Shown: in pieces, positions 11,578 through 52,997 of the stretch
Layout: each line of letters begins with the position of its first letter
How positions within the stretch are numbered: position 1 is the stretch's first letter
From: a virus
Virus record (IMG/VR): IMGVR_UViG_3300009506_000043
Span: 1-52,997 of that record
Strand: one strand, 5' to 3'
Length of the DNA: 52,997 bases
Made by a program: the position numbers and the translations under genes
The notes under the pieces: model-generated
The model's input: only the letters and a program-made list of their open reading frames with translations
What the model was told of the DNA's origin: nothing
Databases searched by the model: none

Positions 11578-11920
11578 CATTAGCCTCTTCAACCAGGTAC
11601 TGGTCGATTTGGTCAAGTAGCTCAAACTGCCGTCGTCCATCGTCCTTTAGTGCAGCCTCCTTCTTCATTCGCTGATAGGTGCGAACCAAGTGAACATGGT
11701 AGAACTCTCGGAAGTGGCCGAGAGCATAGACGAGTAATCCGTAGGCGCCTTCACTGACATTCGGAGGGCGCCGGCGGAAATTCAGAGGCTTGCCGGATTC
11801 CTTGTAGCAGACTTTGCCGTCAACCAACTCGACAAGCCGAATGACCTGATAAACCCACCAGACATCCTCGACGATCGAACCCTCAGAGACAGCCTTATTC
11901 AGACTGATTGCGGGCTGCAA
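11453..11920 (-). CDS. Candidate terminase small subunit
   Basis: An open frame between the giant virion gene and terL. The part VSEGSIVEDVWWVYQVIRLVELVDG ... GLLVYALGHFREFYHVHLVRTY looks genuinely coding and helical. No ATG is available; TTG 11918-11920 or CTG 11900-11902 are the likely starts, so the 5' end is uncertain. The 3' end runs 125-188 bases into terL, and its last 40 residues (QCSTCGRPLGEADRIL...) may be read-through. Position suggests TerS; no DNA-binding motif was confirmed. Confidence 0.45.
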   Translation of the reverse strand: MQPAISLNKAVSEGSIVEDVWWVYQVIRLVELVDGKVCYKESGKPLNFRRRPPNVSEGAYGLLVYALGHFREFYHVHLVRTYQRMKKEAALKDDGRRQFELLDQIDQYLVEEANAARQCSTCGRPLGEADRILPRSERAIRQSGVSQEDSGSGGV

Positions 11921-14900
11921 TGATTTCTCGACGCGCTGTTGCTCTCGCTGTCGTGAAGGCCGCTTCGATTTTCTTAATGTCTCGGGCGGTGGGAGGGTCG
12001 TGGAAGTTGATGCGATTGGCGCGCTCAAGGGCGATCTCTCCTGATCGCTGCACGTATCGCTCGTATTCACCTGTCGACAGTAATTCCTTTCTGCCACGGA
12101 TTGTAATGAAGGGCTTCGGCAGACTGGGATGATATTGCAGGTCCCGTTCCGCTTCGGTCTGATGGGCCTGATTCCATTCCCAAAGCACAACATCTGCGGG
12201 GACTCGCTCACTCAGCCGCTTACCCAGCTTGACTGGTGAGATAACACGATACCACCAGGGAGTGGCTGGTGAAGAAGGCTGGATCACCCGACCCCATTTG
12301 TCGTACTTGTGAATCACGCCAGAGACAGGCAACTCGGCCTTCGCGAGCGTCTTGCGAACCTTAGTGCCAAAGTCGTCACCCTTGCGAATCCGGGTGTCAT
12401 ACACCTCATTGCGACCAACTCGCCAGGGCTGCCGAATGATGTTTGGTACAAATCCAACCAGGACATTCTGAGTCAACTGCGGAATGCCAGAAGCCTCTGG
12501 ATCGGTGAATGCGTTCACGATATCCCCGAGGTTCTGCAGGAAAGTCTTGTCCGTGATCTGCCGCAGGAATGCATCCCATTGAGAATCCGTAAGCGACTTG
12601 CCTTTCTGCCGATTATCCAGAAAGTCAATGATCGCTGGCAGGATTGTCGAGGCTGGTTCGAGGCCGGCATAGCTGAAGAATTGCTGGCCACCCCACGGAT
12701 ATCGGATGGAAAGTGGCGGTGCAACTGCCCAGGCTAGATCACGCGCGAGATAGTTGCGCGGTGAGCTGCCGGTGATGACGGGCGTGTCGTCATCACCCCC
12801 ATAGTACAAGCTGGCAACAGCAGCCGTAATTGCACCCCCAACCATCTGTCGTGCCAGGATCTTATTGAAATTCACTTCATGGCCGTGTTTCTCACTACAG
12901 AGTCGCCAGAGGGGCCAGAGCCCGATCCCTGGAAGTCGGGCCATTGCCGCCTCAAAGTTGTTGAGGGGAAAGTTATAGGTGGGAATCAGGAAGCGCCCAA
13001 ATGGCAGCTTGCGAAGACCTCTCGCCGCCTTCTTTAGTTTCTGCGTGCCAGACCACCCAGCCTGCATGAATGTGGCTTCTAATGCCTCATTGTACGCCAG
13101 CGTCCACGCAGTCGAGCGTCGATCCTTCATGGCGCTTTCGATGTAGCGGGCCATGTGCTGCTTATCGAGTCCAAATCGCTTGGCCTGGCGGTAGGCATGG
13201 GCACCGACCACAGAGTAAGCGTAGATCGTCTTGAACATATCATCAGAGGCGCTGAGTGGCCGCCAGCCAAAGCTTCGCACAAAGCGACCCCATGTGCCTT
13301 TGAGGGCAAACCGTCTATTAAGTACCTCGGTCTTGTAGACATCCCAATCTTGGGCAGCGTAATTCGTGGTGATCCCCAGCTGTTCCGCCAATGCGGATTG
13401 CTCATATGCCCAAGTGCTGGCAAAGTTACGGAGCCCTGGAGCAAGGCCCGCCCACATTCCCTTCAGGATGTATTTGAATTCGCCGAGCTGGGCCCCGGAT
13501 ACTTTCTTGCCAAAGAACTGCTGAGCCGCTTCATTCAGAAGTGCCTCGACGAATCGCTCCGGCCCCAACATCAGCAGGCCGAATCCGGTGTTGGAAATGG
13601 CATTCTTCGCATGTGTATGGGGGCCGCTGAAGATCGAATTGCTGTAGAACTCAAACATCTTGTCGGCCCAGGTTCCGCCCGCCCGCTCGATCATGATGAC
13701 ATTGATCAGCTGCATTGTTGCCAGCTCATCCTGGAGGGCGTCTTGCATCTGGTCAATGCTGATCTCCAACTCCCTGAGCCTCTCCAGGATAGCCCAAGTC
13801 GTTTCTGGGCTGTCAGTATCGAAGATGGCTTCCATGATTTTGCGGGCTCGCTTTGCAACGGGAGAACCCATGCAGATTGGATCGCGCATGTTCAAGACGC
13901 GGCTGATCCAACTTCGGGCCTCGCGGCGATAACGAGACAGATACCACGCATCATCAGCAGCCTCGCGACTGCCAAGTGCGCCGACCGTCATCGCATCGTT
14001 TAAGACCATGTTGATCACGACCATTTCCTCTTCCCATTTCCGAGGATCGTTGCCGAGATCAGCGTGTTCATGTGCCTTCATGTACTCCAGAATTCGATTT
14101 TTCTCCCCGTCGGCATCAGCCTGAACTCTTTTAGCGGCCTTCGCTTCAGCCTCGGCATGGGGATGATACTCGGGCGGGCCGATCTCTTCATCATATTTGT
14201 ACTGGAGGGTGCGACCGGCGATCGTCGTGACCGTATTGGCCCGACCAAGATAACGCTGACGTTCCATGAAGGAACGCATCGCATCGGTCTGGGTAATGCC
14301 CTCCCAGTTGACTCTGGGAGGTGGTTCGCTGGGAGCGAACATCAGAGTAGGTCCCACTCCGGCAATGGCACGACCGCTTATCCCTGGCGGGACTCGTTCA
14401 GCAATCCTTGCAAGACGCGCTTCACCAGCTCGCGTCTCTGTTCCGGGGAGAGGGCCGGTTGGGACGGGCGGCGCTTGGAGTCTTGCCGCCTTGCGGAGAT
14501 TCTTTGGAGCAACTGCTCGGAGTTTTCTGAGGGCTTGTTGGATTTCGGGATCATTTAACAACTCCGCGAATTCAGGAACGGCAGCAATGCTTTCCTGCCT
14601 GAGGGCCTTCACGACCTCCTTGCCCTTGGCTTTGGCCTTCTCCCCGATTTTAGCAGCTGAGGCGGCTTTCAGGAAGGACCAGATGGCGGATTGTGCCTCG
14701 GCAGGTTCAATGTTCAGCTGCTGGGCTGCGCGACGCACAACGGCAGTCAGGGCCAGGTAGAGGGTATGGGAATCAAAGGCGTTATCGGGTCGAACTCCAA
14801 AGAATTCGGCGAGCCAGCGGTCGACCGTCACGGCAGATAGGTCGCCAAGGAGATTCTTGCGAAAACTACGGACCTTCCAGCCGCTCAGCTCCGCGTTCAA

Positions 14901-17900
14901 GGGATTAACCTCAGAAAACGCAGTCACAAGATTGTTTACACTTGCCCCCAATACTTTCGGCTGGAGCCCCAAGAGAAACTCACGAACCTTGTCCGGCTCA
15001 AATGGCTCACCAGCCTCTTCCCAAGCATCCCAAATACGGAGCGCTTCCTTCAGATTCGTCTGTGCGCTGCGCTGTGGAGACGTGGCGGCTAACACATTTA
15101 CGAAACGCGGCGCCTGATCTCCGAAGATGGTAAACAGTGCCTGATGGGCGAATTGATACCACTCTTGCTTGGCGGCGCCGGCCTGAGCGGCGGCGACTGC
15201 TTCCCCGGTCTTGCCTTTGAGTCCCTCGAAGTGTTGAACCACTCGCTGTAGATAAGCCGGCCCAAGACCCCCCAATTCCTCCTCGGTTAGGTAGCGGGCA
15301 ACAGCTGGGGCCGTGAATGTGAAGAGTCCTTTGTCGCCGGCCTGCTGTGCTTCGATCAAGGATAGGAGCGTCTCCCGTACCTGCTGATCGTCAACCGAGA
15401 ATTTATGGTGAGCCTCTTCGCTGAGTTGATCAGCTATCTCCTGCAGCCATTGGTTATATCCGGTCCAGTCATCATCGGTCCAATTCTGAGAAACAAGAAA
15501 CATTCGCTGACTGTAACTGAGCGGCGCATTGGGAGCCTCTTGCCGCTGATGACTGTCCGGCGGCCCATAAAGGGCATCATTCAGCACTTCGGTAAACAGG
15601 TCGACGTCCTGGGTCAGATCGAGAATCTTCTCGTCACCCTGCCGAATGAGAGCGAAGGCGCGTGCCGCGTAATCCGGCTCCTCTGTGGCTGAGACCCCCT
15701 CTTCGTATCCCACGCCGCCCATAATGTCGGGAAACTCTGCGGCGACCGCTCGGCCAATCGTGTCCCACGGCACATCCATGCTTGAATGGTCCTTGCCGGC
15801 ATTCTCGACCTTGCTTAACGTGATCTTGGTCTGGCCGCTCTTGGCCCGAAGCATTTTGCGGGCAGCATTGCGGCGCCGCTTGGGATCGTACTTGAGTGCG
15901 TGCCGTTCACGCAGGTCCTTCAGAATCTCCTTGGTCCATTCCTCCTTTCGCTCGGGCGTAACGGTCTGGTTTTCCTGTGCAGCCCAAGCGTCAATTGCTT
16001 CATCTATCCGCGCCATTGCCAGGGCCTGGCCATTGACGTCATTACTCGGGCGGCCTGGACCTTTGATCAGTTCCGCCCGGCGAGCCGCAACCCGATCTCG
16101 CTGCTCCTTCAATTCATTCAAGACCGCCAGGGCATCAGGATCAGTAAGGTTCTTGGCTCGCCCGAACAACTTCAATAGGGCATCCACCAACCGCTGCCAC
16201 AATGTCGGCTGCTCTTGTAGTAACTGCTCACGGAAGGCGCCATCTGTGAAGAAGGTGCCGACCATCTCGGCCATTGCTTCCCGCCAATACCAGTCCGTCT
16301 TGTTGCCTTTGTCGTCGATCAGGTATTTGCGATACCCGGTCATATCGGGCGGCAGTCTTTTCATGTACTGCTGACCGAACTGATCAAGGCGCGCCTCTCC
16401 CACCAGAGCCTTCAAGACGTCCACTTCAGTAGCATGGGCCAGCTCGTGGCCGGCGGTGTACCAAATTGCCTCCTCAGCGGCTCGCTCGTCCAAGTAGAGT
16501 ACGCGAGGCCCTCGCACTCGTTCATCGACAAAGGAGATTTCTGCGGTGCTCGTGATAATGCGGACGTCATGCCCGAATGCTTGGGCTAATTGCTGCGCCG
16601 CCTTTTCTTGCGAAGAAGACGGTTCCCGCATCGAGGTAACTTCCACAGGCACGCCGAGTTCTTTCATCCGGTCATTGAGCTGTTCCAGCGATAACACCGC
16701 AGGTGGTGCGAGCGGGGGCTTGGCCTTCTCTGGAGCGGCGGGGACGGGCTGTATTTCCGTACCGGTGAAAAACTCCCCGAATCGCTTTCGGAGAATCCTG
16801 CGAACCTTGTCGTAATCGTAGTCCCTCATCCCCCTCCCCATGTCTTGCCGAATGTCAGACATGAGTGCTGGTACGCCTCCGAAACCGTACTGATGGAAGG
16901 TTGGATCGCCACGCTCAATCACATCGAAACGACCCATTACCTTATCAGTAAACGGCTGGTCCTCGTTGAGAGTGGAACCTTGTGGGACATCTAACAGCTC
17001 ACCAAACTCCGCCTCTATCTCCTGGGATATACGATCTGCTTTGTCCTTACTGCCAAGGTAGATGGTATAGTCTTTACCTTTCTGTCCACTACTGCGGCCC
17101 TCCTTGAATAAAACTCCCTTCTCTCTCAGCTTCTGCGTAACCGCATCCCTATTCTCCTTCGAGACGGCTAAATGCAACTTCCAGCCAGCACCCTCTACTG
17201 CCATGTCTTTGTGCATATCAGGAGCATTCGGGCTGCCGGCTGGTGGAACGTAGTATCCAGGAGTCTTCGCCGGCTGACTTACTGGTATTTGCGGGACGAC
17301 GGCTTCGACCTCGGCAGCTGCTGTTGCTGGACCCAACTCCCCAGGCGTCAGCTCCTGATAACGACCAGTGCGCTCAACCATGCGCTGGGCGAGCGCCCGC
17401 CTGATCGTGTCCTCATCCTGCTGGAGATCCTCCTTGCTCAAGGGATAGCCCATTGCCTTCGCAGCCGATGCCAGCCCTTCTTTGTCCAGATCCCTCAGCT
17501 GGTCATATTGGCGCTGGGCGCGTTCTGAAAGTGGGGCTGGCGCTGCCCCTACTTGTGCTTCCGGTGCTTGCTGTGCTTCGGCTTCCGCCCCGTGGCGTAG
17601 CTCAGGCCGGTTTTCGCCTGGGCGATTCTGATCGCTGATCCCTCCGAGTACCCCTTCGCCTGTAGGTGGCGCTTCAGGCGGGCGACTTTCGAGTTTTTCG
17701 GCATGACTGATCTCCTTCTGATAGGGTTTGACTTGCTTAGCCAGGATCTCCCGAATCATCGATTCGCGGGACCGAACTTTTGGAAATCCAAATCTCTTGG
17801 CAATATCCCACTTTGACATTGCCTCCAATTCCTGACGAATAGCATCCTCGGCTTCAGGAAAGGCCAGAACCTTTTCCTTCTGAGCCTCTGGAAGCTCCAG

Positions 17901-19676
17901 CACGCGGAGAAAAGATGGACCACCTCTTGGTGCCTGTTGTGCCGCGAGCCGCTCTTTAGACATCTGGACGATTCTGGCGCGGGCCAGGGCGTCCAGCCCC
18001 AGGTCGGCCAGGTTCTTCCTTGGAACCCCTGCAGCTTCAGCAAACTGGGTCCGGGTAGGAATCTCTGGTAGGTTAGCGAGTGCGTCCCATTGGTCGGGAT
18101 GTTGACTAATGAAGTCGCGGGCCAACTGCGTCCTTTTGTGCTCAGCCGATACTTCCGCCTCGGGAATTTCCTCGACCGGAGTTGGTTCGGGGGTTTCCGT
18201 GGCCGGAATTGGCTCGGGGGCGAGAACCTCCTGAACAGCGGCTTGAAACTCAGTCGGCTCGGCTGCAGGTTCGGCCGGCGGCGCTTCCGTGGCCTTTTCC
18301 CGTTCCTTCCTTGCCGCCGCCAGTCGCTCGCGGAAGTCTTTGGCTAAAGTGATCTGCGGGCCTTCCCCCAGCGCCTCCCTTATCACAGCGGCCCCAGCAG
18401 GGATCCCAAGGAAGCCCAGATACTGAGACATCAGATCGACAGCCAAATCCTTGTAGCGACCTTCCTTGATTTCCTCCAATGTTCGACTGTCGCCAGGCGA
18501 GACCGTCGCGGCTCGGGCAAACTCCTCAAAATACTCTTCCACCATTTCAAGCGGAGGTGCCTGCAGCTGCGTGCGCTTGGCGAATTTGGCGACCTTGCCC
18601 TTACCGAAAATGCTGGCGTGCTTGTTCATCATGAATTGCGCCAGCTTCTTGGGAAAATAGCCCTTCTGCGCCATCTTCCGGGTGGTTCCGCTGATCGTGC
18701 CACCAAGTGCCTCTGAGGCAGCCGTGATCGATTGGCCGATGAATGCCTTGGAGTAGGCAGTCAGTGGGCTTTCGCCTTCCGTCAATCGACGGCGCTCGGC
18801 CTCGGCGGCGATTTGCTGAGGCATGCCAAGGGCCTGGACGGCAGATCGAGCAACGACGGCGGCCACGCGGCCAGAAAGCTTGCGCGTAACGCCCTTAATG
18901 CCGGCCTTGGTGGCGGCTCGCATCGTCATCTTCGCGGCCCCTGCTCCGGCGCGAGCGGCCAGGCCGGCGGGCAGTGCGAATTCGGCAACATAACCTGGCA
19001 GCGAGGTCATGATATCAACGCCGCCCTGCGTCACTCGCTTATACCAGGCTTTCTGATCCTGATTCTCGTGCCAGCGATTCTCCTGGATGAATTGCCCAAG
19101 AAGTAGGTAATCACCTGAATCAGCTTCACCGGCATTGAAGCGATTGACGGCACCTCGGAGTTTGACCAGCTCACCGACTTCTACGCCGGTCCCCACAAAA
19201 GGAATTCTGCTGACCCAATACTTGAGGTTCTCGCGATTAGTCGAGAGATCCTCGAACATGGCCATTGCGCTCAGGAGTCGCTTTTCGGGCAGGGCCTGGT
19301 CATCTGCCCAATCATTCGGCTGAACGCGAGTGTAGGAGGCCAACCATTCGTCCTGATCAATTTGGCCTAGGGCAAATCGATAGTCCTCGGAGCTGCCCTG
19401 CCCTGCGCCTACACGGCGAATTGCTACCTGGGTCGGACGAAGGCCGCTTTCTAATCCGGCTTGAATGTCTTCGGGGACGGCAAACTCAATCTGCTGAGTG
19501 AGTTTGCCAATCCCCTGAGAGGCAGTCTCCATCAGCTTTGAGAGCGGCTTCTGTTCTCCATTGGCGGCTTGCCGGGGACCTTCCTTAAAGAGTCGCTGCA
19601 GACCCTCGTGTGAAATCTCAAGTCCATCGCCGAGAATCCATTTTGTGCCATCCCAGGTTGCGGGTATTTGGGCCAT
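11895..19676 (-). CDS. Giant virion/ejection polyprotein-like protein with zincin peptidase
   Basis: At 2,593 residues it takes about 15% of the genome. Order: helical N terminus with a hydrophobic Ala/Gly segment near 230-260; Pro/Glu-rich linker near 450-520; small helical repeats (ELEAMSKWDIAKRFGFPKVR and GLASAAKAMGYPLSKEDL); a zincin peptidase with HELAH at 1077-1081 and candidate third ligands E1133/E1137 in WREAMAEM; a helical region with NVLAATSPQRSAQTN; and a C-terminal 600 residues resembling large polyvalent-protein ends (GGAITAAVASLYYGGDDD near 2290). Location beside nozzle and Gln-rich virion genes suggests it is packaged and injected with DNA, possibly opening the envelope. Domain names beyond the zincin are tentative. 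Confidence 0.75.
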   Translation of the reverse strand: MAQIPATWDGTKWILGDGLEISHEGLQRLFKEGPRQAANGEQKPLSKLMETASQGIGKLTQQIEFAVPEDIQAGLESGLRPTQVAIRRVGAGQGSSEDYRFALGQIDQDEWLASYTRVQPNDWADDQALPEKRLLSAMAMFEDLSTNRENLKYWVSRIPFVGTGVEVGELVKLRGAVNRFNAGEADSGDYLLLGQFIQENRWHENQDQKAWYKRVTQGGVDIMTSLPGYVAEFALPAGLAARAGAGAAKMTMRAATKAGIKGVTRKLSGRVAAVVARSAVQALGMPQQIAAEAERRRLTEGESPLTAYSKAFIGQSITAASEALGGTISGTTRKMAQKGYFPKKLAQFMMNKHASIFGKGKVAKFAKRTQLQAPPLEMVEEYFEEFARAATVSPGDSRTLEEIKEGRYKDLAVDLMSQYLGFLGIPAGAAVIREALGEGPQITLAKDFRERLAAARKEREKATEAPPAEPAAEPTEFQAAVQEVLAPEPIPATETPEPTPVEEIPEAEVSAEHKRTQLARDFISQHPDQWDALANLPEIPTRTQFAEAAGVPRKNLADLGLDALARARIVQMSKERLAAQQAPRGGPSFLRVLELPEAQKEKVLAFPEAEDAIRQELEAMSKWDIAKRFGFPKVRSRESMIREILAKQVKPYQKEISHAEKLESRPPEAPPTGEGVLGGISDQNRPGENRPELRHGAEAEAQQAPEAQVGAAPAPLSERAQRQYDQLRDLDKEGLASAAKAMGYPLSKEDLQQDEDTIRRALAQRMVERTGRYQELTPGELGPATAAAEVEAVVPQIPVSQPAKTPGYYVPPAGSPNAPDMHKDMAVEGAGWKLHLAVSKENRDAVTQKLREKGVLFKEGRSSGQKGKDYTIYLGSKDKADRISQEIEAEFGELLDVPQGSTLNEDQPFTDKVMGRFDVIERGDPTFHQYGFGGVPALMSDIRQDMGRGMRDYDYDKVRRILRKRFGEFFTGTEIQPVPAAPEKAKPPLAPPAVLSLEQLNDRMKELGVPVEVTSMREPSSSQEKAAQQLAQAFGHDVRIITSTAEISFVDERVRGPRVLYLDERAAEEAIWYTAGHELAHATEVDVLKALVGEARLDQFGQQYMKRLPPDMTGYRKYLIDDKGNKTDWYWREAMAEMVGTFFTDGAFREQLLQEQPTLWQRLVDALLKLFGRAKNLTDPDALAVLNELKEQRDRVAARRAELIKGPGRPSNDVNGQALAMARIDEAIDAWAAQENQTVTPERKEEWTKEILKDLRERHALKYDPKRRRNAARKMLRAKSGQTKITLSKVENAGKDHSSMDVPWDTIGRAVAAEFPDIMGGVGYEEGVSATEEPDYAARAFALIRQGDEKILDLTQDVDLFTEVLNDALYGPPDSHQRQEAPNAPLSYSQRMFLVSQNWTDDDWTGYNQWLQEIADQLSEEAHHKFSVDDQQVRETLLSLIEAQQAGDKGLFTFTAPAVARYLTEEELGGLGPAYLQRVVQHFEGLKGKTGEAVAAAQAGAAKQEWYQFAHQALFTIFGDQAPRFVNVLAATSPQRSAQTNLKEALRIWDAWEEAGEPFEPDKVREFLLGLQPKVLGASVNNLVTAFSEVNPLNAELSGWKVRSFRKNLLGDLSAVTVDRWLAEFFGVRPDNAFDSHTLYLALTAVVRRAAQQLNIEPAEAQSAIWSFLKAASAAKIGEKAKAKGKEVVKALRQESIAAVPEFAELLNDPEIQQALRKLRAVAPKNLRKAARLQAPPVPTGPLPGTETRAGEARLARIAERVPPGISGRAIAGVGPTLMFAPSEPPPRVNWEGITQTDAMRSFMERQRYLGRANTVTTIAGRTLQYKYDEEIGPPEYHPHAEAEAKAAKRVQADADGEKNRILEYMKAHEHADLGNDPRKWEEEMVVINMVLNDAMTVGALGSREAADDAWYLSRYRREARSWISRVLNMRDPICMGSPVAKRARKIMEAIFDTDSPETTWAILERLRELEISIDQMQDALQDELATMQLINVIMIERAGGTWADKMFEFYSNSIFSGPHTHAKNAISNTGFGLLMLGPERFVEALLNEAAQQFFGKKVSGAQLGEFKYILKGMWAGLAPGLRNFASTWAYEQSALAEQLGITTNYAAQDWDVYKTEVLNRRFALKGTWGRFVRSFGWRPLSASDDMFKTIYAYSVVGAHAYRQAKRFGLDKQHMARYIESAMKDRRSTAWTLAYNEALEATFMQAGWSGTQKLKKAARGLRKLPFGRFLIPTYNFPLNNFEAAMARLPGIGLWPLWRLCSEKHGHEVNFNKILARQMVGGAITAAVASLYYGGDDDTPVITGSSPRNYLARDLAWAVAPPLSIRYPWGGQQFFSYAGLEPASTILPAIIDFLDNRQKGKSLTDSQWDAFLRQITDKTFLQNLGDIVNAFTDPEASGIPQLTQNVLVGFVPNIIRQPWRVGRNEVYDTRIRKGDDFGTKVRKTLAKAELPVSGVIHKYDKWGRVIQPSSPATPWWYRVISPVKLGKRLSERVPADVVLWEWNQAHQTEAERDLQYHPSLPKPFITIRGRKELLSTGEYERYVQRSGEIALERANRINFHDPPTARDIKKIEAAFTTARATARREIIAARNQSE

Positions 19677-39583: not shown

Positions 39584-40141
39584 TTAGCTCCAGTCGACCT
39601 TTAGGACGTCGAATCGACCATAGAATCCGTTGTTGCTGGGCCGGAATGTACCGAGTCCGATGAATTGTCCCGCATCGCGCAATGTGAGTTCAAAAATCTC
39701 CTCGGTAATGATGTCATCTAACACCAGCACCTCGGCAATCGCTTCCCACTTCATGATGCGAGGAAAGATTTTCCATACTCGGCCCTTACCGCCCCGCTTG
39801 CCGTCAGCCGGCACGTACAGGTGAAATTTGTCAACCTTCTCCAATGGGACTCCAAGCAGCAGGGGCTCGACGCAGAGGATGCCGGCCACGAAGTGCTTTG
39901 TATACTTCTGGTTGCCCTTGCCGGGAATTTTCATGCTTTTGTAAGACGCGGCCTCGGAGAGACAGTTCTTCAGTGCCATTGGCGGAATGAAGACCTCTCC
40001 CTCTTCAGTGACATGCGCCTTGCGCTTCCAGATGCGCTCCTCCCAATCCTCCCAAGTCGCATCCCTAGGCTTTGTCTCGGGCACTGGCGCCGACTGACAC
40101 ATCGGCGTCACGGACTTGAGTAGACAAACTGCAGTCTTCAT
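39584..40141 (-). CDS. Hypothetical protein
   Basis: A 185-residue protein, MKTAVCLLKSVTPMCQSAPV. Segments IPPMALKNCLSEAASYKSMK and GLGTFRPSNNGFYGRFDVLK occur in phage proteins of unknown function next to recombination genes. Start after TAGGAGAGACCC. Three 10-bp repeats lie just upstream. Confidence 0.6.
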   Translation of the reverse strand: MKTAVCLLKSVTPMCQSAPVPETKPRDATWEDWEERIWKRKAHVTEEGEVFIPPMALKNCLSEAASYKSMKIPGKGNQKYTKHFVAGILCVEPLLLGVPLEKVDKFHLYVPADGKRGGKGRVWKIFPRIMKWEAIAEVLVLDDIITEEIFELTLRDAGQFIGLGTFRPSNNGFYGRFDVLKVDWS

Positions 40142-40160: not shown

Positions 40161-40193
40161 GACGGGTTCTGACGGGTTCTGACGGGTTCTGAC
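40161..40193. repeat. Three tandem 10-bp repeats GACGGGTTCT
   Basis: Three exact copies at 40161-40170, 40171-40180 and 40181-40190, plus GAC. The period matches one DNA turn, suggesting a protein-binding site upstream of the 185-residue gene. Confidence 0.75.
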
Positions 40194-41913: not shown

Positions 41914-42417
41914 TCAGTTACCTTCAAAGAGTCGGGGTAGGGGTAAGTGTCGAGAAAGAAAATGGCGACGACCGTATTCAGCGAGCAATGTTGCGTCGGC
42001 ATACCGTTTCGTGAATTTCACATTCGGCCAGAGATCCTCAGCCTTTTGCTTGCTGACGTTCTTGTCACCCTTGGTCACGCAACCGAAATAGGTTTGCCAG
42101 GTCAGGGGCGCAACGAATTCGGCGCGTAGCTTGCAGGCGACCAGAAAGCCCTGAATCATGCCGTAGGAGACACCGAGTTTCCATGTGCCCTGCGATCCGC
42201 GATGTGCAGTGGTCATGCGATTCGGCAGCGCCCAAAGTTTTTCCACAGTCACAAGCTGGACTGGAAAGGTTTTGCCCAGGTACGCCAGGCAGTCATAGAG
42301 ATCCCTCGGAGTCTGCTTGAGCGTCCACCAACCTGCAAACTCACCGCTCGATCGCAGTGCTACAATCGCGCCGGACTGGCCGGGGTCGATGCCGAGAAAC
42401 ACCCACGCAGAGGGCAT
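41914..42417 (-). CDS. RuvC-like Holliday junction resolvase
   Basis: A 167-residue protein with the RNase H-fold pattern: FLGIDPGQSGAIVAL (catalytic Asp), LVTVEKLWALPN (Glu) and KRYADATLLAEYGRR (Asp). RuvC-type phage enzymes cut recombination or packaging branches as dimers. Start ATG 42415-42417 (MPSAWVFLG) follows the upstream stop by 17 bases; ATG 42472-42474 adds 19 residues. Located between loader and membrane genes. Confidence 0.75.
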   Translation of the reverse strand: MPSAWVFLGIDPGQSGAIVALRSSGEFAGWWTLKQTPRDLYDCLAYLGKTFPVQLVTVEKLWALPNRMTTAHRGSQGTWKLGVSYGMIQGFLVACKLRAEFVAPLTWQTYFGCVTKGDKNVSKQKAEDLWPNVKFTKRYADATLLAEYGRRHFLSRHLPLPRLFEGN

Positions 42418-42433
42418 CGCGGTACTCACCGGT

Positions 42434-42985
42434 TCAGGCTGCCGCTGGGGCAATTTGGCTTCTAGCCCATTCATCCAGCGATTCCTTTTGCTTCGTGATG
42501 GATTGAGTCGTATCAACAAGTAGGTCTCTATCACAACGATAGACGGCAGCGTGGCCGCCTTTTTTCTCGCCGGCGGCACAAGTGCATTTCGCAGCGGCGG
42601 TCGCCCAGGCTGCGCGTTGTTCGCGTGATTGAATCTCGCCAGCGGCGAAGGCGAGTGCAATCGTGACCGCCGTCTGATGCCAGATGGTCACAAACCCAGT
42701 GTCGCGGCAGATCGAACACTCATAGTGATCGCGGCGCCAATGGGCATCCTCACTGAGTGTCGGATGTAGGTCGTGCTTGATATGCACGGCGATTGCACGC
42801 AGTTCGCCAGGCCGTGGCATCCAATGTGTGTCGCGCCGCAGCCATTCATCAACTGCAAGGATCAAGGCATCATCAGGCAGGTCGCAGAGAACATCCTTCC
42901 AGATGGCCAATTCGTCCGGGTTGATCTCCTGATGCAAGCCGGTGCAGAGTCGAGAGTACGCGGCGGTGATGTGGGAGGCGTTCAT
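42434..42985 (-). CDS. Helicase-loader-like protein
   Basis: A 183-residue protein, MNASHITAAYSRLCTGLHQE. The N terminus (EINPDELAIWKDVLCDLPDD ... WLRRDTHWMPRPGELRAIA) matches the SPP1 G39P/loader pattern. A central YECSICRDTGF ... CTCAAG suggests a zinc-binding part, as in some loaders. It directly follows the initiator gene, as P follows O in lambda. Probable role: bring host DnaB helicase to the origin. Confidence 0.55.
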   Translation of the reverse strand: MNASHITAAYSRLCTGLHQEINPDELAIWKDVLCDLPDDALILAVDEWLRRDTHWMPRPGELRAIAVHIKHDLHPTLSEDAHWRRDHYECSICRDTGFVTIWHQTAVTIALAFAAGEIQSREQRAAWATAAAKCTCAAGEKKGGHAAVYRCDRDLLVDTTQSITKQKESLDEWARSQIAPAAA

Positions 42986-43914
42986 TGCTTGCAAAACCTC
43001 CCAGGGATTTTGATGCGCCGTTTTCGCTCGGATGCGGCATCCAGTTCCTCCGGCGTCATCTCGGACTTGGGCTTCTTGCCGTCCTTGGGCTCAAAGAGGC
43101 CCTGGTAGCCATTGGCGATCGAGTGGCGGAGCGCAGCGATTGCTCGATCCCTGCCCCAGCCTTCCAGCTTCTGGAGCGTCTCGTAGGCGCCGGTTTCCTT
43201 GATCGGCTTGTGGATCTCGCTCCGGTGCCGAACCCAGTCGAGCCAGGCGGCAAACAGCTCGTCATCGTGGAAAAGGCTCGGCCAGTACAACCGGTCGCAG
43301 AGACCGGGAGGACGGGGCGGTGGGGGGGGGAGCCTTTCTGTAGATTCTTTTGAATCCAAGACATTTGATTCCGAATCCTGGGTAGGATCAAGAGATACCC
43401 TAGCGCCTTGGTTACTACTGTCGTACGACCGGGTCACTACGACCGGGTCACTACGACCGGGTCGTACGACCGGGTCACTACGACCGGTTGAAGCATTTTC
43501 CCCCTCTTCTGGGGACCAGAGTGTTACGACCGGGTCACTACGACCGGGTCGTACGACCGGGTCACTACGACCGGTTGAAGCATTCCGAGTGAGGAATCCG
43601 CCCATCCTACTCACCCGACCCTTGACATGGCGGGGGGCGTGATCGTGCCAATCGTGGATCAGGAGCCGGTACGTTTCATCGCGGTCGAGCCAGCCGGTTT
43701 CGATGAGGGCGGCCAGCAGCTCTTGGGGGTCGCCAGGCCAGTCGGCGAAGATGGCAATTTCCTCGTCTGTGTATCGACCGATATCACCTCTTGGACACTC
43801 CGTCGTGGCCGACATCCAGAGACACTCCAGGAGCCCGACAGCCTCATGCTTCGAGAGTCCCAGGTGGCGCTGAAAGCGGCGGAACTTCAATAGATCAGGC
43901 GCAGTGTGAATCAC
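42982..43914 (-). CDS. Replication initiator-like protein
   Basis: A 310-residue protein from GTG 43912-43914. N terminus APDLLKFRRFQRHLGLSKHE ... IAIFADWPGDPQELLAALIE resembles phage initiators and DnaD-like winged helices. The centre holds tandem ASTGRSDPVVRPGRSDPVV, encoded by the iteron array. The C terminus (AFAAWLDWVRHRSE-like helices, AIAALRHSIANGYQGLFEP) recalls primosome loading domains. It precedes a loader-like gene, giving an O/P-style pair. Confidence 0.65.
   Translation of the reverse strand: MIHTAPDLLKFRRFQRHLGLSKHEAVGLLECLWMSATTECPRGDIGRYTDEEIAIFADWPGDPQELLAALIETGWLDRDETYRLLIHDWHDHAPRHVKGRVSRMGGFLTRNASTGRSDPVVRPGRSDPVVTLWSPEEGENASTGRSDPVVRPGRSDPVVVTRSYDSSNQGARVSLDPTQDSESNVLDSKESTERLPPPPPRPPGLCDRLYWPSLFHDDELFAAWLDWVRHRSEIHKPIKETGAYETLQKLEGWGRDRAIAALRHSIANGYQGLFEPKDGKKPKSEMTPEELDAASERKRRIKIPGRFCKQ
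43424..43579. repeat. Nine-iteron replication origin candidate
   Basis: Nine near-identical units, TACGACCGGGTCAC and variants, at about 43424, 43438, 43452, 43465, 43479, 43525, 43539, 43552 and 43566. A 60-bp block (43438-43497) is exactly duplicated at 43525-43584. GTCGTACGAC palindromes join some units. An array inside its own initiator gene is how lambda ori is organised within O. Confidence 0.7.
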
Positions 43915-44473
43915 GGGAAGCGGGCCTTTCTGCGAGTTCTTTCTTGAGGTATCGCATGGCGTATAAACGGTGTGCGGGAAAGACGCAGGCGCCGGTCTCT
44001 CGGTTGAATGCTTTCTCCCGGTGAATACATTGACAGGCGACAATCTCGCGTGATTGCCAGCCGATTAACTCGATAGTTGTGATATTGACCATTCTGCAAA
44101 GGACGAAATAGTCGGCGGCGAAAGTTGTATCTGGCGGGAAAATCATCTCCAGCTTGTGCAGTGGCATTGTGCGGAGATTTATGGCCCTGGTCTTGACCTG
44201 AATCGTCGCATTAGAATCCTGCAAATCTATGGAATCGTCGCCGCCAGGCAGGATGCGCCGATCGACGTTGAAACCTAAATATCTGCCGACCGCCATTTCG
44301 CCCATCAGGCCAAGCCAGTGCGAACCGAATCCGGCCTCAACCCAATCGACGCGATGTTTGGCACCCGATTTCTCTTTCGCCTCCTGCCGAAGCCTGGCGA
44401 GGCGACAGGCATTCTCGACCTCGATGGGCTTGAGTTCGATCGGTTCAAAATTTTCAACTGTCGTAAAGGACAC
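43895..44473 (-). CDS. PD-(D/E)XK-like nuclease
   Basis: A 192-residue protein, MSFTTVENFEPIELKPIEVE. HWLGLMGEMAVGRYLGFNV, then DDSIDLQDSNATIQVKTRAI gives the E...D...QxK order of PD-(D/E)XK nucleases, followed by FVLCRMVNITTIELIGWQSR and KKELAERPASRDSHCA. It could process recombination intermediates. ATG follows GGAGGCGTCTGGTGTCC-like sequence; it overlaps the HTH gene slightly. Confidence 0.6.
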   Translation of the reverse strand: MSFTTVENFEPIELKPIEVENACRLARLRQEAKEKSGAKHRVDWVEAGFGSHWLGLMGEMAVGRYLGFNVDRRILPGGDDSIDLQDSNATIQVKTRAINLRTMPLHKLEMIFPPDTTFAADYFVLCRMVNITTIELIGWQSREIVACQCIHREKAFNRETGACVFPAHRLYAMRYLKKELAERPASRDSHCA

Positions 44474-45314: not shown

Positions 45315-46421
45315 TCACGCGGCTCTATTTGCGAGCTCAGCGGCTCGCTCGTCACAGGCGACAAAGATGGCGTCCATTGTTTGTTGGTCGGCGTAACCAG
45401 CGAAGCGAGTGCCCACCCGCTCCACTTCCTCATGGGTGGTTGCTCGCGCGAGTGCGTTTCGTAAGGCCTCAGGTGTGTATTGGAGGGCAACGTGCTCATC
45501 ACTGGATTCCTCTGTTTCTGTGGGTGATTCTTCAGGGACCTCCTTCAACTCCTCGACGGCCGGCGCCGGTGATTCTGCCTTCTGCGATTTGGCCTTTCGT
45601 CGCGGCCCAGCAAGTCGATCTGTGACAGTGCCCGCAACAGGCGTCGATTCACCGAACCAGGTCTCGACCGTTTCGATTCCATCCTTGATTGATTGGTAAA
45701 CGCGAATGAGATTGAGCAGCTCAGGCTCGCGAGTTGCTGCGAGATTGTGCTGCAGAAACGCCTCCAGCATCCCGGTAGTGACGCCGAGTACGGCGAATTT
45801 CTCAGTGCATCGCTTGATTCGAGCTGGAAGGGGTTCAGATGACGTGCTTAGGGTTTTATCAACCTCATCGCTCATCAGCTCTTGCAGGTATCTGGGAATG
45901 ACCTGCTGCATGCAGGCCCTGAGCCGGCGGGCACCCATGTTCGCGTTGTGCTCATAGATATCCCTTGGGTCAACGAGCGGCTCTGGCCCTTCGCGCTTTG
46001 AGCGCAAGTGCTCATTGATCCAGCCACGGCTCACAAGTACGTTGCTCTCCAGGTCTGCGGCGAAAGCCATCAAAGAGGATTCTCCTGGCCGGCGCTCGAC
46101 TTCGCTCCAACCTGAGTAGACGTTCTTGTAGATCCTGGCCAGTTCGAGCACGGCATGAACACTGAGACCGGAAACGATCTGATTCCCGCGCTTGTAGGCG
46201 TACTTGGCCTTTTCGCAGAAGGTCCGGCTCTTGCAAACTCCGACGACCTTGTTGACGCATTGCATCTCGTCGCGAGGGAATCGCTTGGCGAGCAGCATGC
46301 CAGACTGAATCTGATAGCTGATGCGTGCAGACTCCAGATCCAGCTGGCGGCTGGAGTCAGCGATCGCGGGCAGAGATTCCGTTTCGATCTCACCTTGTGA
46401 GGTAACAAGTTCGGTTCCCAT
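45315..46421 (-). CDS. Candidate single-strand annealing protein
   Basis: A 368-residue protein after TAGGAGGTCCAT. SGLSVHAVLELARIYKNVYS ... SSLMAFAADLESN ... VDPRDIYEHNANMGARRLRA and VIPRYLQELM match a widespread phage family (GPS.RLAE.., DLETN, SRDIYE.VANMGARRLRAC.L..IP) found beside RecE/YqaJ-type exonucleases and thought to anneal DNA. The rear is Glu/Pro-rich and disordered. Family role is from memory, not confirmed. Confidence 0.55.
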   Translation of the reverse strand: MGTELVTSQGEIETESLPAIADSSRQLDLESARISYQIQSGMLLAKRFPRDEMQCVNKVVGVCKSRTFCEKAKYAYKRGNQIVSGLSVHAVLELARIYKNVYSGWSEVERRPGESSLMAFAADLESNVLVSRGWINEHLRSKREGPEPLVDPRDIYEHNANMGARRLRACMQQVIPRYLQELMSDEVDKTLSTSSEPLPARIKRCTEKFAVLGVTTGMLEAFLQHNLAATREPELLNLIRVYQSIKDGIETVETWFGESTPVAGTVTDRLAGPRRKAKSQKAESPAPAVEELKEVPEESPTETEESSDEHVALQYTPEALRNALARATTHEEVERVGTRFAGYADQQTMDAIFVACDERAAELANRAA

Positions 46422-46430
46422 ATGGACCTC

Positions 46431-47336
46431 CTAATCGGGCATTTCGAGTGGAATGGTTTTTCCCCAACCTTGAGGAAACCAGTTGTCGGTCTCATAACGC
46501 TGCAGCAGTTCGTCGAGCCAGGTATCAGCTCGCCACCGACCGAAGGCGAGAAAACGCGGCGTGTCCTCGTAGACGTACACGTCGTAGGGCGGGCTGTTGC
46601 GAATCACGACCCAGACGAACCGCCAGCCAGTCTTTCCGGTCAGCGCTTCAATGGCTTCGAGATAAGTGACCGCCTGGACGTCGTAGCAGTACCGCTTGCA
46701 CGCCCACCGGAACGGGTAAGGCTCGGGATCCTGGGCGGTCTTGACGTCCACGACGAGCTGCGGGCGCCAGAGAACAAGGTCCAGTTCAGCCTTGCGACCG
46801 ACCTCTGTCCGAGGGCATTCCCAGAAGATTTGTACGTTCCAATCGTGCTTCAGCCGGCCAAACAGGAGACTGTTGGCAGCTTCATGACTGCGCAGATTGG
46901 CCAGGACTTGCGTGTAGCAACCCCACTTGCCGTAGCGATCTTCGATTTCAGGAGAGGTGAGGAGCTCGGCGCCTGCCGGTTGCGAGTCCCGGTAGTTAAT
47001 CCAGGCGGATCCCTTGCGATGCCCATCGGCATTCAGAGCGGTGGAGGGGATGTGGCGGATCGTCGAGGGGCAGCCCCCGGATCGGATGGCCGCCTCGCAC
47101 GCGATTCCCCAGGCTTGAGATGGGGTTGGGTCACTGGGCGGAACGATCTTCTGGACGCGGGTCCGCCAGTACAACAGAGGCGCCTGGTGAGCGAAAACCA
47201 CGTCACTCTGGGCGAGCAGCCGATGGTCTCTGTACTCTTGAGCGCCTAAGCAGACTCTCAATGCGCCGTTCACCGGATCCCCGCGCTTCGGTGGAGTCCG
47301 GCAGCACTGTACGGTCTTGGGGGTGCCAGAGGTCAT
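46431..47336 (-). CDS. RecE-like PD-(D/E)XK exonuclease
   Basis: A 301-residue protein, MTSGTPKTVQCCRTPPKRGD. AELDLVLWRPQLVVDVKTAQ carries the D...DxK core; RYCYDVQAVTYLEAIEALTG is the following QxxxY helix of RecE-type nucleases. Such enzymes make 3' single-stranded tails for the annealing protein encoded just after. ATG overlaps the CsrA-like stop as ATGA. Confidence 0.75.
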   Translation of the reverse strand: MTSGTPKTVQCCRTPPKRGDPVNGALRVCLGAQEYRDHRLLAQSDVVFAHQAPLLYWRTRVQKIVPPSDPTPSQAWGIACEAAIRSGGCPSTIRHIPSTALNADGHRKGSAWINYRDSQPAGAELLTSPEIEDRYGKWGCYTQVLANLRSHEAANSLLFGRLKHDWNVQIFWECPRTEVGRKAELDLVLWRPQLVVDVKTAQDPEPYPFRWACKRYCYDVQAVTYLEAIEALTGKTGWRFVWVVIRNSPPYDVYVYEDTPRFLAFGRWRADTWLDELLQRYETDNWFPQGWGKTIPLEMPD

Positions 47337-47671: not shown

Positions 47672-47967
47672 TTCTCCTCCAATTGACGCCGTTCAAATCC
47701 ATCGGCAGAGGATACATCGAGAAGGCGAAGCACAGCAACTTGTCACATCGAAACAGGACCAAATCGATGTGTTGTCACTTCCTGTCACTTCCTGTCACTT
47801 CCTGTCACGTCGAAAAACGTGCGCTTATGACACGCGCACAAGAGGTGCGAAATGCTTCGCGCAGAGAAGGTGTGAATTTCCCGATGAAAACAGCACAGTC
47901 TCAATACGGGATTTTGAAAGTGGCAGGGGGTGCGCAGGCAGTGCTTCGGATAGTGCTTCGCCTGCAT

Positions 47968-47997
47968 AAAAAAACCCCTGTTTTTCAAGGGGTTTTT
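47968..47997. terminator. Bidirectional terminator in attP
   Basis: AAAAACCCC paired with GGGGTTTTT, 10-base loop, T-runs on both strands, between int and the csrA-like gene. Confidence 0.8.
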
Positions 47998-48003
47998 CGT
48001 TCT

Positions 48004-48029
48004 GGCAGGGGCACCACAACCCCCTGCCG
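48004..48029. terminator. Second hairpin near int end
   Basis: GGCAGGGG paired with CCCCTGCC, short loop, close to the int stop; no strong T-run. Confidence 0.45.
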
Positions 48030-48042
48030 AGGGGCGATTTTG

Positions 48043-49263
48043 TCACTTCCTGGCACTTTCTGTCACTATTTCCTGGGAAATTCGGATTGACTTGCGGCCA
48101 GGAAGTGACTTTGGCACTCTATGCCGGCGCCGAGATGCTTCGCTTTTTACTTCGCCCTCTTCGACCGCCAGTCTCAAGTGCTCCTCCGTCACTTGCAGGT
48201 AGTGTTGCTCGGCGACGCGGCTGGAATGACCGATCCAACCGGCGACAACATGCGAGGGGAATCTATCATTTAATTCTGTCTCTCTGCTCGATCGCATGTT
48301 TTGAAAAAGCTTCGGCCAAGGTATAATACCACGACTCCGCAAAGCGCGCTTGACTCTGTGGTAAACCGTGGGCCCTGTCATCGTCGGATCGTCGATAATC
48401 TGACCCTTAGACTCATGTTGCCAGCGCCGACTCAAAACCTCCCTGACGTCGGGGAAGAGTGGAATCATCCGAATTCGGCAATGCGGGTGCCTGGCCGTCT
48501 TCTGGCAGGTCACACGAAGCGTCCCGCCTTCCCAGTCAATATCAGCCCAGTCGAGCGGGAGGACCTCAGAGGGCACCCTGAGGCCTCCAAAACGGGCCAG
48601 GACGGCGACCAAATACGAGTCGTCATCCAGATCGTCGGCCAGGCTGCGGATCGATTCCTGGGGTACCCAGACGCGCCTAGCGGCCAGATCCGGCTTCGGG
48701 GGCCGAATGCCGGCGAATGGATTGACTGGCAGCCACTGTTTGGCCACGGCCGCCGCGAAGAACTGGCCGGCCTGCCGAAACCGACTCTCCACTGTGGCAG
48801 TCGAAAGCGGCTCGCCCTTGACCGCACCATGCTGGCTGAGCCAAACCAAAAACTCTTGCGCGTCTCCCCGGCTGACCGATCCAATCAATCGATCCGGGCC
48901 GAAAAAAGTCAGGAGATTTCTCTTTACCTTAGCGTGAATTTTTTGGGTAGAGGAATTGACCTGGACAGTTCGGCTGGCGTAGTCAAGCAAGGCGGCCAGC
49001 GTGGCCTGTGGGGCTTCCTCAAGGACCCCAAGCCGGGCGAGACGTTGTGTCATTTGCGGACTCAGGCCTGTGACCCAGGCCCTGGTTTCAGGGTCAAGCG
49101 GCAGGCCGAGCCGCCTTGTGCTCAGAATCATGTCGATGCGCCTCGCGAGTTGCTGCGCTTGGCGCCTCGACGCAACGCCGAGTCGCAGAGTTTGCCGCGA
49201 CCCGTTGAGGTTCCGAAATTGAATCCACACATGGCCTTTCGGCCTCCTGACAACTGACGCCAT
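48043..49263 (-). CDS. int: Tyrosine integrase, planctomycete type
   Basis: A 406-residue recombinase from ATG 49261-49263 (GGAGGCGCATG; an adjacent upstream ATG is alternative). N-terminal MASVVRRPKGHVWIQFRNL and a SAM-like core-binding part precede the catalytic domain: FGGLRVPSEVLPLDW (Arg), CQKTARHPHCRIRMIP (Lys region), FQNMRSSRETEL (box II, His replaced by Asn/Gln), GWIGHSSRVAEQHYLQV (His and Tyr). The box II variant and AEQHYLQVTEEH ending fit integrases I associate with Planctomycetes. attP lies at its 3' end. Confidence 0.9.
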   Translation of the reverse strand: MASVVRRPKGHVWIQFRNLNGSRQTLRLGVASRRQAQQLARRIDMILSTRRLGLPLDPETRAWVTGLSPQMTQRLARLGVLEEAPQATLAALLDYASRTVQVNSSTQKIHAKVKRNLLTFFGPDRLIGSVSRGDAQEFLVWLSQHGAVKGEPLSTATVESRFRQAGQFFAAAVAKQWLPVNPFAGIRPPKPDLAARRVWVPQESIRSLADDLDDDSYLVAVLARFGGLRVPSEVLPLDWADIDWEGGTLRVTCQKTARHPHCRIRMIPLFPDVREVLSRRWQHESKGQIIDDPTMTGPTVYHRVKRALRSRGIIPWPKLFQNMRSSRETELNDRFPSHVVAGWIGHSSRVAEQHYLQVTEEHLRLAVEEGEVKSEASRRRHRVPKSLPGRKSIRISQEIVTESARK

Positions 49264-49552
49264 CATGCGCCTCCAGTGTTTTGAGATATCGTTCCACAGC
49301 GGATCGCCTGATCCGCACAATCCTCCCTCCGCAACTGACGGTAGGGAGTTCGCCCGCCTCGATTTTGCGCCGTAGAGTGCGCGATGAGACGTGCAACAAA
49401 TTGGCAGCCTCTGCGTAAGTCAGAAGTTGCGCTTGAGGGATGACCTGGACTGATTCCAGTGTCAATGACCCTTGGAGGACTTGGTCTGCGAGCCACAGAC
49501 CGATCACCTCGCCGAGAACTCGGCACGCCTCGACAATTTCGTCCCTTGACAT
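49094..49552 (-). CDS. Xis-like HTH protein overlapping int
   Basis: A 152-residue protein, MSRDEIVEACRVLGEVIGLW. LLTYAEAANLLHVSSRTLRR then KIEAGELPTVSCGGRIVRIR is a typical excisionase/MerR-like winged helix. Start after AAGGAGGCCCCTA. It runs 170 bases into int, recalling lambda xis-int overlap. Most likely controls excision or int expression. Confidence 0.65.
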   Translation of the reverse strand: MSRDEIVEACRVLGEVIGLWLADQVLQGSLTLESVQVIPQAQLLTYAEAANLLHVSSRTLRRKIEAGELPTVSCGGRIVRIRRSAVERYLKTLEAHDGVSCQEAERPCVDSISEPQRVAANSATRRCVEAPSAATREAHRHDSEHKAARPAA

Positions 49553-52263: not shown

Positions 52264-52997
52264 TCACGCCTCATCGACTAGGCTTACATCGGGACAAATC
52301 CACAAGTGAGTCGAAGGGACAGCGAGGCCAAAATCATAGAAAATCCAACCCGGTTCAGTGGGGTTAATTCCAGGAATCACCAGCTTGTATTTGGTGTAAG
52401 GCCCACCGGGCTCCGTCCAGGTAGATGAATCGGTCTTCAAGTAAGGCGATGTACCGGCTGCCTTGCCGTCGCCATAGGTCGCGAAAGTCGATAGCCATTC
52501 ACCATCGGCCGTGCCGGATTCGCTATTCCAGCGCACCCTGGCTCCAACTTCGTCATCGGTCAGCCCTGAGTCGTCAGAAAGTAGATAAATCGTCAGTTGC
52601 TTAGACCCAGTGGCATCATGCCATTTCGATAAGGTCTGGGGAAGCCAGCCGATATCCAGGCGATTTGCACTCGCATTTGTGTAGAGATCATAGGCCCAGC
52701 TGTTTTCGCCGTCTGATCCCGTGCGGTAGACACTTGTCTGCTGCTTCCCATGAGTAAGCCCGTAGGCAACAGAGTCATACAGGCCGAGGGGAGTCTTGGA
52801 GAGTGCGCCGACGGCGCAGAACTTGGCTCGGATGTGATCACCGCGCTTTATTGTGCCATTACAAAGCGCGTACCCACTTTTCAAAACGCATCGCACAAAC
52901 TCACATTGTATTATTGGAACCGTGGGGCAGTACATCAGGAGCGAAAACTTCGACAGGTCGCATTCCTCGACAGTCCCAACAATCGGATTTTGGTAGC
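52264..52997 (-). CDS. Virion adhesin-like protein, C-terminal part
   Basis: Continues in frame from 1-677. The ending runs from the join through SLLMYCPTVPIIQCEFVRCV, GLYDSVAYGLTHGKQQTSVY and TIYLLSDDSGLTDDEVGARV to GLAVPSTHLWICPDVSLVDEA, a strand-rich carbohydrate-binding-like domain. The stop at 52264 overlaps the next gene's GTG. 52940-52997 duplicates 1-58, so the whole protein is 450 residues, not two genes. Confidence 0.75.
   Translation of the reverse strand, partial: YQNPIVGTVEECDLSKFSLLMYCPTVPIIQCEFVRCVLKSGYALCNGTIKRGDHIRAKFCAVGALSKTPLGLYDSVAYGLTHGKQQTSVYRTGSDGENSWAYDLYTNASANRLDIGWLPQTLSKWHDATGSKQLTIYLLSDDSGLTDDEVGARVRWNSESGTADGEWLSTFATYGDGKAAGTSPYLKTDSSTWTEPGGPYTKYKLVIPGINPTEPGWIFYDFGLAVPSTHLWICPDVSLVDEA
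52940..52997. repeat. Circular-assembly overlap, right copy
   Basis: Exact repeat of 1-58; see that entry. Confidence 0.95.

Follow-up and report, generated by a model that had tools for sequence, protein, structure and literature searches.

The window, that is, the whole stretch of DNA analyzed here (52,997 bases, record IMGVR_UViG_3300009506_000043, which represents a whole virus), very probably contains the origin at which a temperate phage starts its replication, lying within the phage's own initiator gene in the manner of the O/gp38-type origins. An iteron origin inside the initiator gene is what the original prediction had proposed, and it is supported by the location of the repeats in the linker of the protein, by constraint at the DNA level and by the presence of iterons at the same place in relatives. 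The record has an exact 58-bp direct terminal repeat (1–58 = 52940–52997) and is therefore probably a complete genome of ~52,939 bp. It encodes a tyrosine integrase and a large terminase, from which we infer a temperate tailed phage. Among bacterial genomes, the closest relative of the initiator comes from a MAG of the Pirellulales (L026; 45% identity over the best-matching segment), so that the host may be a planctomycete, as far as the nearest relative of one gene can indicate.

The start codon of the initiator gene (Table 1) was picked from the alignment of homologues and a GAAAGG-like SD, and it lies inside the terminal part of the upstream ORF 43895–44473; the mechanical ORF (hereafter, the long ORF) extends to a TTG at 44043. 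The gene product is a supported candidate for a phage replication initiator. When compared with the PHROGs profiles, its N-terminal part matched phrog_9474, "replication initiation protein" (1.8e-19, residues 53–143 of the long ORF), and also phrog_13246, "replisome organizer", while the C-terminal part matched phrog_678, "replication initiation O-like" (2.6e-08, residues 265–324 of the long ORF). The Pfam and NCBIfam profiles gave no match for the initiator. No O-type N-terminal domain was found in it, and because the N-terminal domain matches phrog_9474 and phrog_13246 and not an O family, we do not class the protein as an O protein, even though it would work like one. In an AlphaFold model built with 50 aligned sequences, residues 11–110 reach pLDDT values of 94–98 and residues 121–210 are mostly below 50; the repeats are encoded within and around this latter, predicted disordered part. 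Neither a sequence search of the PDB nor a Foldseek search with the model returned a significant match. The adjoining ORF, which occupies the position of a helicase loader, had no significant family match in profile searches and no homologues, and its single-sequence structure model was too poor for use.

Table 1. Features of the initiator locus and of the genes discussed in the text (positions in the window).
Feature	Position	Strand	Basis
Initiator gene, 310 aa, GTG start at 43914	42982–43914	-	ORF list; phrog_9474 / phrog_678 / phrog_13246
N-terminal domain, residues 1–110, presumed iteron-binding	43585–43914	-	phrog_9474 match 43615–43887; AlphaFold
Disordered inter-domain linker encoding the repeats	43285–43584	-	pLDDT, residues 121–210
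C-terminal O-like domain, presumed contact of helicase or helicase loader	43060–43251	-	phrog_678, phrog_18589
Iteron block A, five units (43424, 43438, 43452, 43465, 43479)	43424–43488	+	Repeat search
Iteron block B, four units (43525, 43539, 43552, 43566)	43525–43575	+	Repeat search
60-bp duplication, copy 1	43438–43497	+	60/60 identical to copy 2
60-bp duplication, copy 2	43525–43584	+	60/60 identical to copy 1
AT-rich stretch, candidate unwinding element, directly 3' of the iterons (gene direction)	43335–43414		GC content
G-rich tract (coding strand C-rich, poly-proline)	43307–43329	+	Explained by encoded prolines, shuffle fraction 1.0
ORF in helicase-loader position, adjoins initiator	42434–42985	-	ORF list
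Holliday junction resolvase, replication-recombination cluster	41914–42660	-	phrog_1770 3.1e-16
Exonuclease VIII-like / PDDEXK protein, replication-recombination cluster	46431–47336	-	PF12684 3e-08; phrog_412 9.1e-20
Tyrosine integrase gene	48043–49320	-	phrog_1 3.5e-31

Nine TACGACCGG units lie within 43424–43574, all inside the minus-strand initiator gene. Their start-to-start spacings are 14, 14, 13 and 14 bp in block A and 14, 13 and 14 bp in block B, with a step of 46 bp between the blocks, so that the nine units of 13–14 bp and the exact 60-bp duplication described in the original prediction are both confirmed, as is their location within the initiator coding sequence. The 60-bp match cannot be extended by one base at either end. 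The whole record has seven copies of an 11-bp core, ACGACCGGGTC, all of them within the array, and the 8-mer CGGTCGTA was observed nine times in the gene vs. at most three times in any of 2000 same-protein codon shuffles. The spacing of 13 or 14 bp is not a multiple of three, and the units are consequently read in three frames: four of them encode SDPVV, as had been claimed for the array as a whole, while the other five encode RPGR/TGR (four units) or TRSY (one unit). The DNA unit is thus kept while the peptide differs across frames, which argues that it is the DNA, rather than the peptide, that is repeated and constrained.

We then surveyed 82 initiator genes that share the N-terminal domain (the window, L008–L016, L023–L026 and L029–L106, with duplicates removed, although some closely related pairs, e.g., L085/L088 and L057/L060, are still in the set) and compared them with 140 other, similarly long ORFs of these loci, which are mechanical ORFs rather than curated genes. 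The scan was based on alignment A3, alignment A2 being without conserved stretches. The repeat score exceeded that of all 20 same-protein codon shuffles in 30 of the 82 initiators vs. 9 of the 140 controls; 26 of these 30 arrays start at nt 275–410 of the gene, and 18 of the 30 have their unit in each of the three reading frames. A local periodicity of 10, 11, 13 or 14 bp, which breaks the reading frame, was present in 29/82 initiators and 1/140 controls, with about 10 of the 29 (period 10) stemming from a pentamer tract, described below, and not from iterons. Around half of the family showed no clear array in the repeat test, which requires near-identical 9-mers and misses degenerate iterons. 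Arrays with a 12-bp period (e.g., L085, L098) were dropped as evidence at the DNA level, as they keep the frame and could be peptide repeats. The iterons themselves are diverse: the Pirellulales L026 gene, the nearest bacterial homologue, has TTCCGGAA at 10–11 bp spacing in the same place, L008 has TCGCGAACG, Microcystis phage Mae-JY24 has AAACCGTTC, L057 has ACTCCAGTA and L091 has TGCAACCCC, while the O protein gene of Gifsy-2, whose product has the C-terminal domain in common, carries TATCCCCGA repeats at 11-bp spacing. Judging from the sequences compared, the place of the iterons is conserved across the family and their sequence is not. A search of other viral contigs for exact pairs of the iterons gave only two single matches (L107, L108), both in unrelated sequence, which we judged to be due to chance.

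The units contain the odd palindrome GACC-S-GGTC. Odd palindromes are common in operators, and in iteron plasmids clustered initiator sites can serve handcuffing or autoregulation, so the repeats might instead be sites at which the initiator or a repressor controls transcription or copy number, with the origin located elsewhere. GC skew would agree with this reading: no extremum was found at 43.5 kb, where the original prediction had placed one, the detrended extrema lying near 12.8 and 31.3 kb, and skew across the record neither supports nor locates an origin at 43.5 kb. We give this result little weight, because in temperate phages the orientation of the genes and the time spent as a prophage both shape the skew. 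Against control sites, the units lie ~330–490 nt into the gene, away from its start, relatives carry their iterons at the equivalent internal place, and the same layout is used as ori in well-studied phages (PMC7466680, PMC6316719). We therefore consider this explanation improbable.

Less probable still is that the array is a minisatellite that grew by slippage or duplication in a disordered linker and has no function as DNA. Linkers of this kind tolerate repeats, the two 60-bp copies are offset by 87 bp (29 codons) and keep the frame, and so do the 27-bp unit pairs. The copies look recent since there are no differences between them, and by themselves they are no proof of constraint. Nevertheless, growth of this sort is at odds with spacings of 13 and 14 bp read in three frames, and with the unrelated, frame-breaking repeats found at the equivalent place in homologues far more often than in control ORFs. 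Finally, it is highly unlikely that the true origin is the region of 10-bp TGTCACTTCC direct repeats beside the integrase gene (47773–48110), which is mostly non-coding but neither in nor beside the initiator gene, and whose repeats flank a central stretch near the tyrosine integrase gene as in the arm-site layout of attP. These repeats (47773–47812, 48041–48067 and 48097–48109) bracket a short non-coding stretch and are probably the integrase arm sites of attP.

An origin embedded in the initiator gene, which we prefer over these explanations, would also have a candidate unwinding element at hand. The 80-bp AT-rich stretch next to block A has 41% GC vs. 57% for the record, within the lowest 0.3% of 80-bp windows, and among the 12 such regions in the record it is the sole one between 33.1 and 48.2 kb. 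The chance of finding one so near the array by accident is roughly 5%, as estimated from these 12 regions. The unwinding element of lambda has the same position relative to its iterons. Across the family, a comparison of AT content downstream vs. upstream of the arrays showed no significant dip (p = 0.39). From the arrangement in the window we infer origin activity together with binding, melting and helicase loading: the N-terminal domain of the initiator would bind as a multimer to the nine iterons, which are centred on GACCSGGTC; once loaded, this complex would melt the AT-rich stretch adjoining block A, and the C-terminal O-like domain would recruit the replicative helicase via a loader, whereupon replication would start.

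A second element was found downstream of the iterons in many of the relatives. Tandem 6-bp tracts are present in 32 of the 82 initiator genes and 5-bp tracts in 12, either kind being found in 44/82 vs. 0/140 controls. Carriers include L064, L073, L088, L093, L095, L097 and L101, with the tracts at about nt 330–580 of the initiator gene. The 5-bp units are CCAAA or CCAAG and the 6-bp units CCAGAG and others, the opposite strand being G-rich. The 6-bp tracts mostly encode X-Pro repeats and could have been selected as peptide, while the 5-bp tracts look as though they were selected as DNA, because their units pass through all three frames. In the ten genes that have both an out-of-frame array and a 6-bp tract, the array invariably begins first. 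The template strand is also enriched in G-runs (50/82 initiators vs. 6/140 controls), which we considered as a separate signal and rejected: in same-protein shuffles the enrichment was largely accounted for by the proline-rich linkers, with a mean chain of 7.5 observed vs. 6.3 in the shuffles and p ≤ 0.05 in 20 of the 82 genes. At the place of the tract, the window has only poly-C, which is accounted for by prolines. Tentatively, the linker of this family might encode a two-part DNA module, consisting of phage-specific iterons followed by a C-rich tract for strand opening or strand choice, though we regard this as doubtful. The role proposed for the tract can be likened to that of the DnaA-trios, which adjoin DnaA boxes.

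The surroundings of the initiator gene are as expected for a replication-recombination cluster, to judge by the predicted exonuclease VIII-like protein and Holliday junction resolvase among its neighbours. Between the exonuclease and the initiator, at 45315–46421, lies a gene for a phrog_3657 protein (1.6e-65), a family without known function; its position makes it a candidate single-strand annealing protein. Elsewhere in the record, GACGGGTTCT is repeated three times, exactly, at 40161–40193, directly upstream of the minus-strand ORF 39584–40141, and is a possible operator. The minus strand also contains a single ORF of 2593 aa (11895–19676), very long given the size of the phage.

These results narrow a predicted origin to ~250 bp in what is probably a phage of planctomycetes, and we know of no origin described for planctomycete phages. 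They also indicate that a frame-breaking repeat period inside an initiator gene could be used as a simple origin finder where iteron sequences are not conserved, and that pairs of initiators and iterons could be collected to study the joint change of the recognition domain and its site.

The lambdoid origin is located in the middle of the O gene and comprises an AT-rich region and a set of iterons, four in lambda and six in Stx phages; in the Stx phages, the extra iterons add in-frame residues to O (PMC7466680). As in these phages, the iterons and the AT-rich tract of the window occupy the central part of the initiator gene, between the parts presumed to bind DNA and to recruit the helicase, and the C-terminal domain matches the O-like phrog_678. 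The parallel with lambda ori that had been drawn at the outset, with other iterons and more copies, thus holds: there are nine units here, of unrelated sequence and 13/14-bp spacing. The N-terminal domain differs, being of phrog_9474 with no match to the O family, and no homologue of lambda P was seen in the present phage. In SPP1, oriL sits in gene 38 and is bound by the product of this gene, with direct repeats and an AT-rich unwinding element inside the initiator gene, as proposed here, and the module includes a helicase loader gene (PMC6316719), whereas the present phage has a loader candidate by position only. No sequence match to SPP1 was found for the initiator or the repeats, and SPP1 has a second origin, oriR, of which no counterpart was seen. 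The replisome organizers ORF13 of TP901-1 and Rep2009 of Tuc2009 bind direct repeats in their own genes (PMC8965321); the present initiator, whose binding is presumed, resembles them in layout, and their hosts are lactococci. Closest in the N-terminal domain are the phrog_9474 initiators of Paenibacillus phage Harrison, which had no clear array in the repeat test, Microcystis phage Mae-JY24 and Pirellulales L026. Several initiators of this group have out-of-frame iterons in the equivalent linker, with other sequences and spacings, mostly of 10–12 bp. The embedded-origin layout is therefore already known from experiments on lambda/Stx phages, SPP1 and TP901-1/Tuc2009 and appears here in a new lineage, which is set apart by the family of its N-terminal domain, by how many units it has, by the 13/14-bp size of these iterons and by the probable host.
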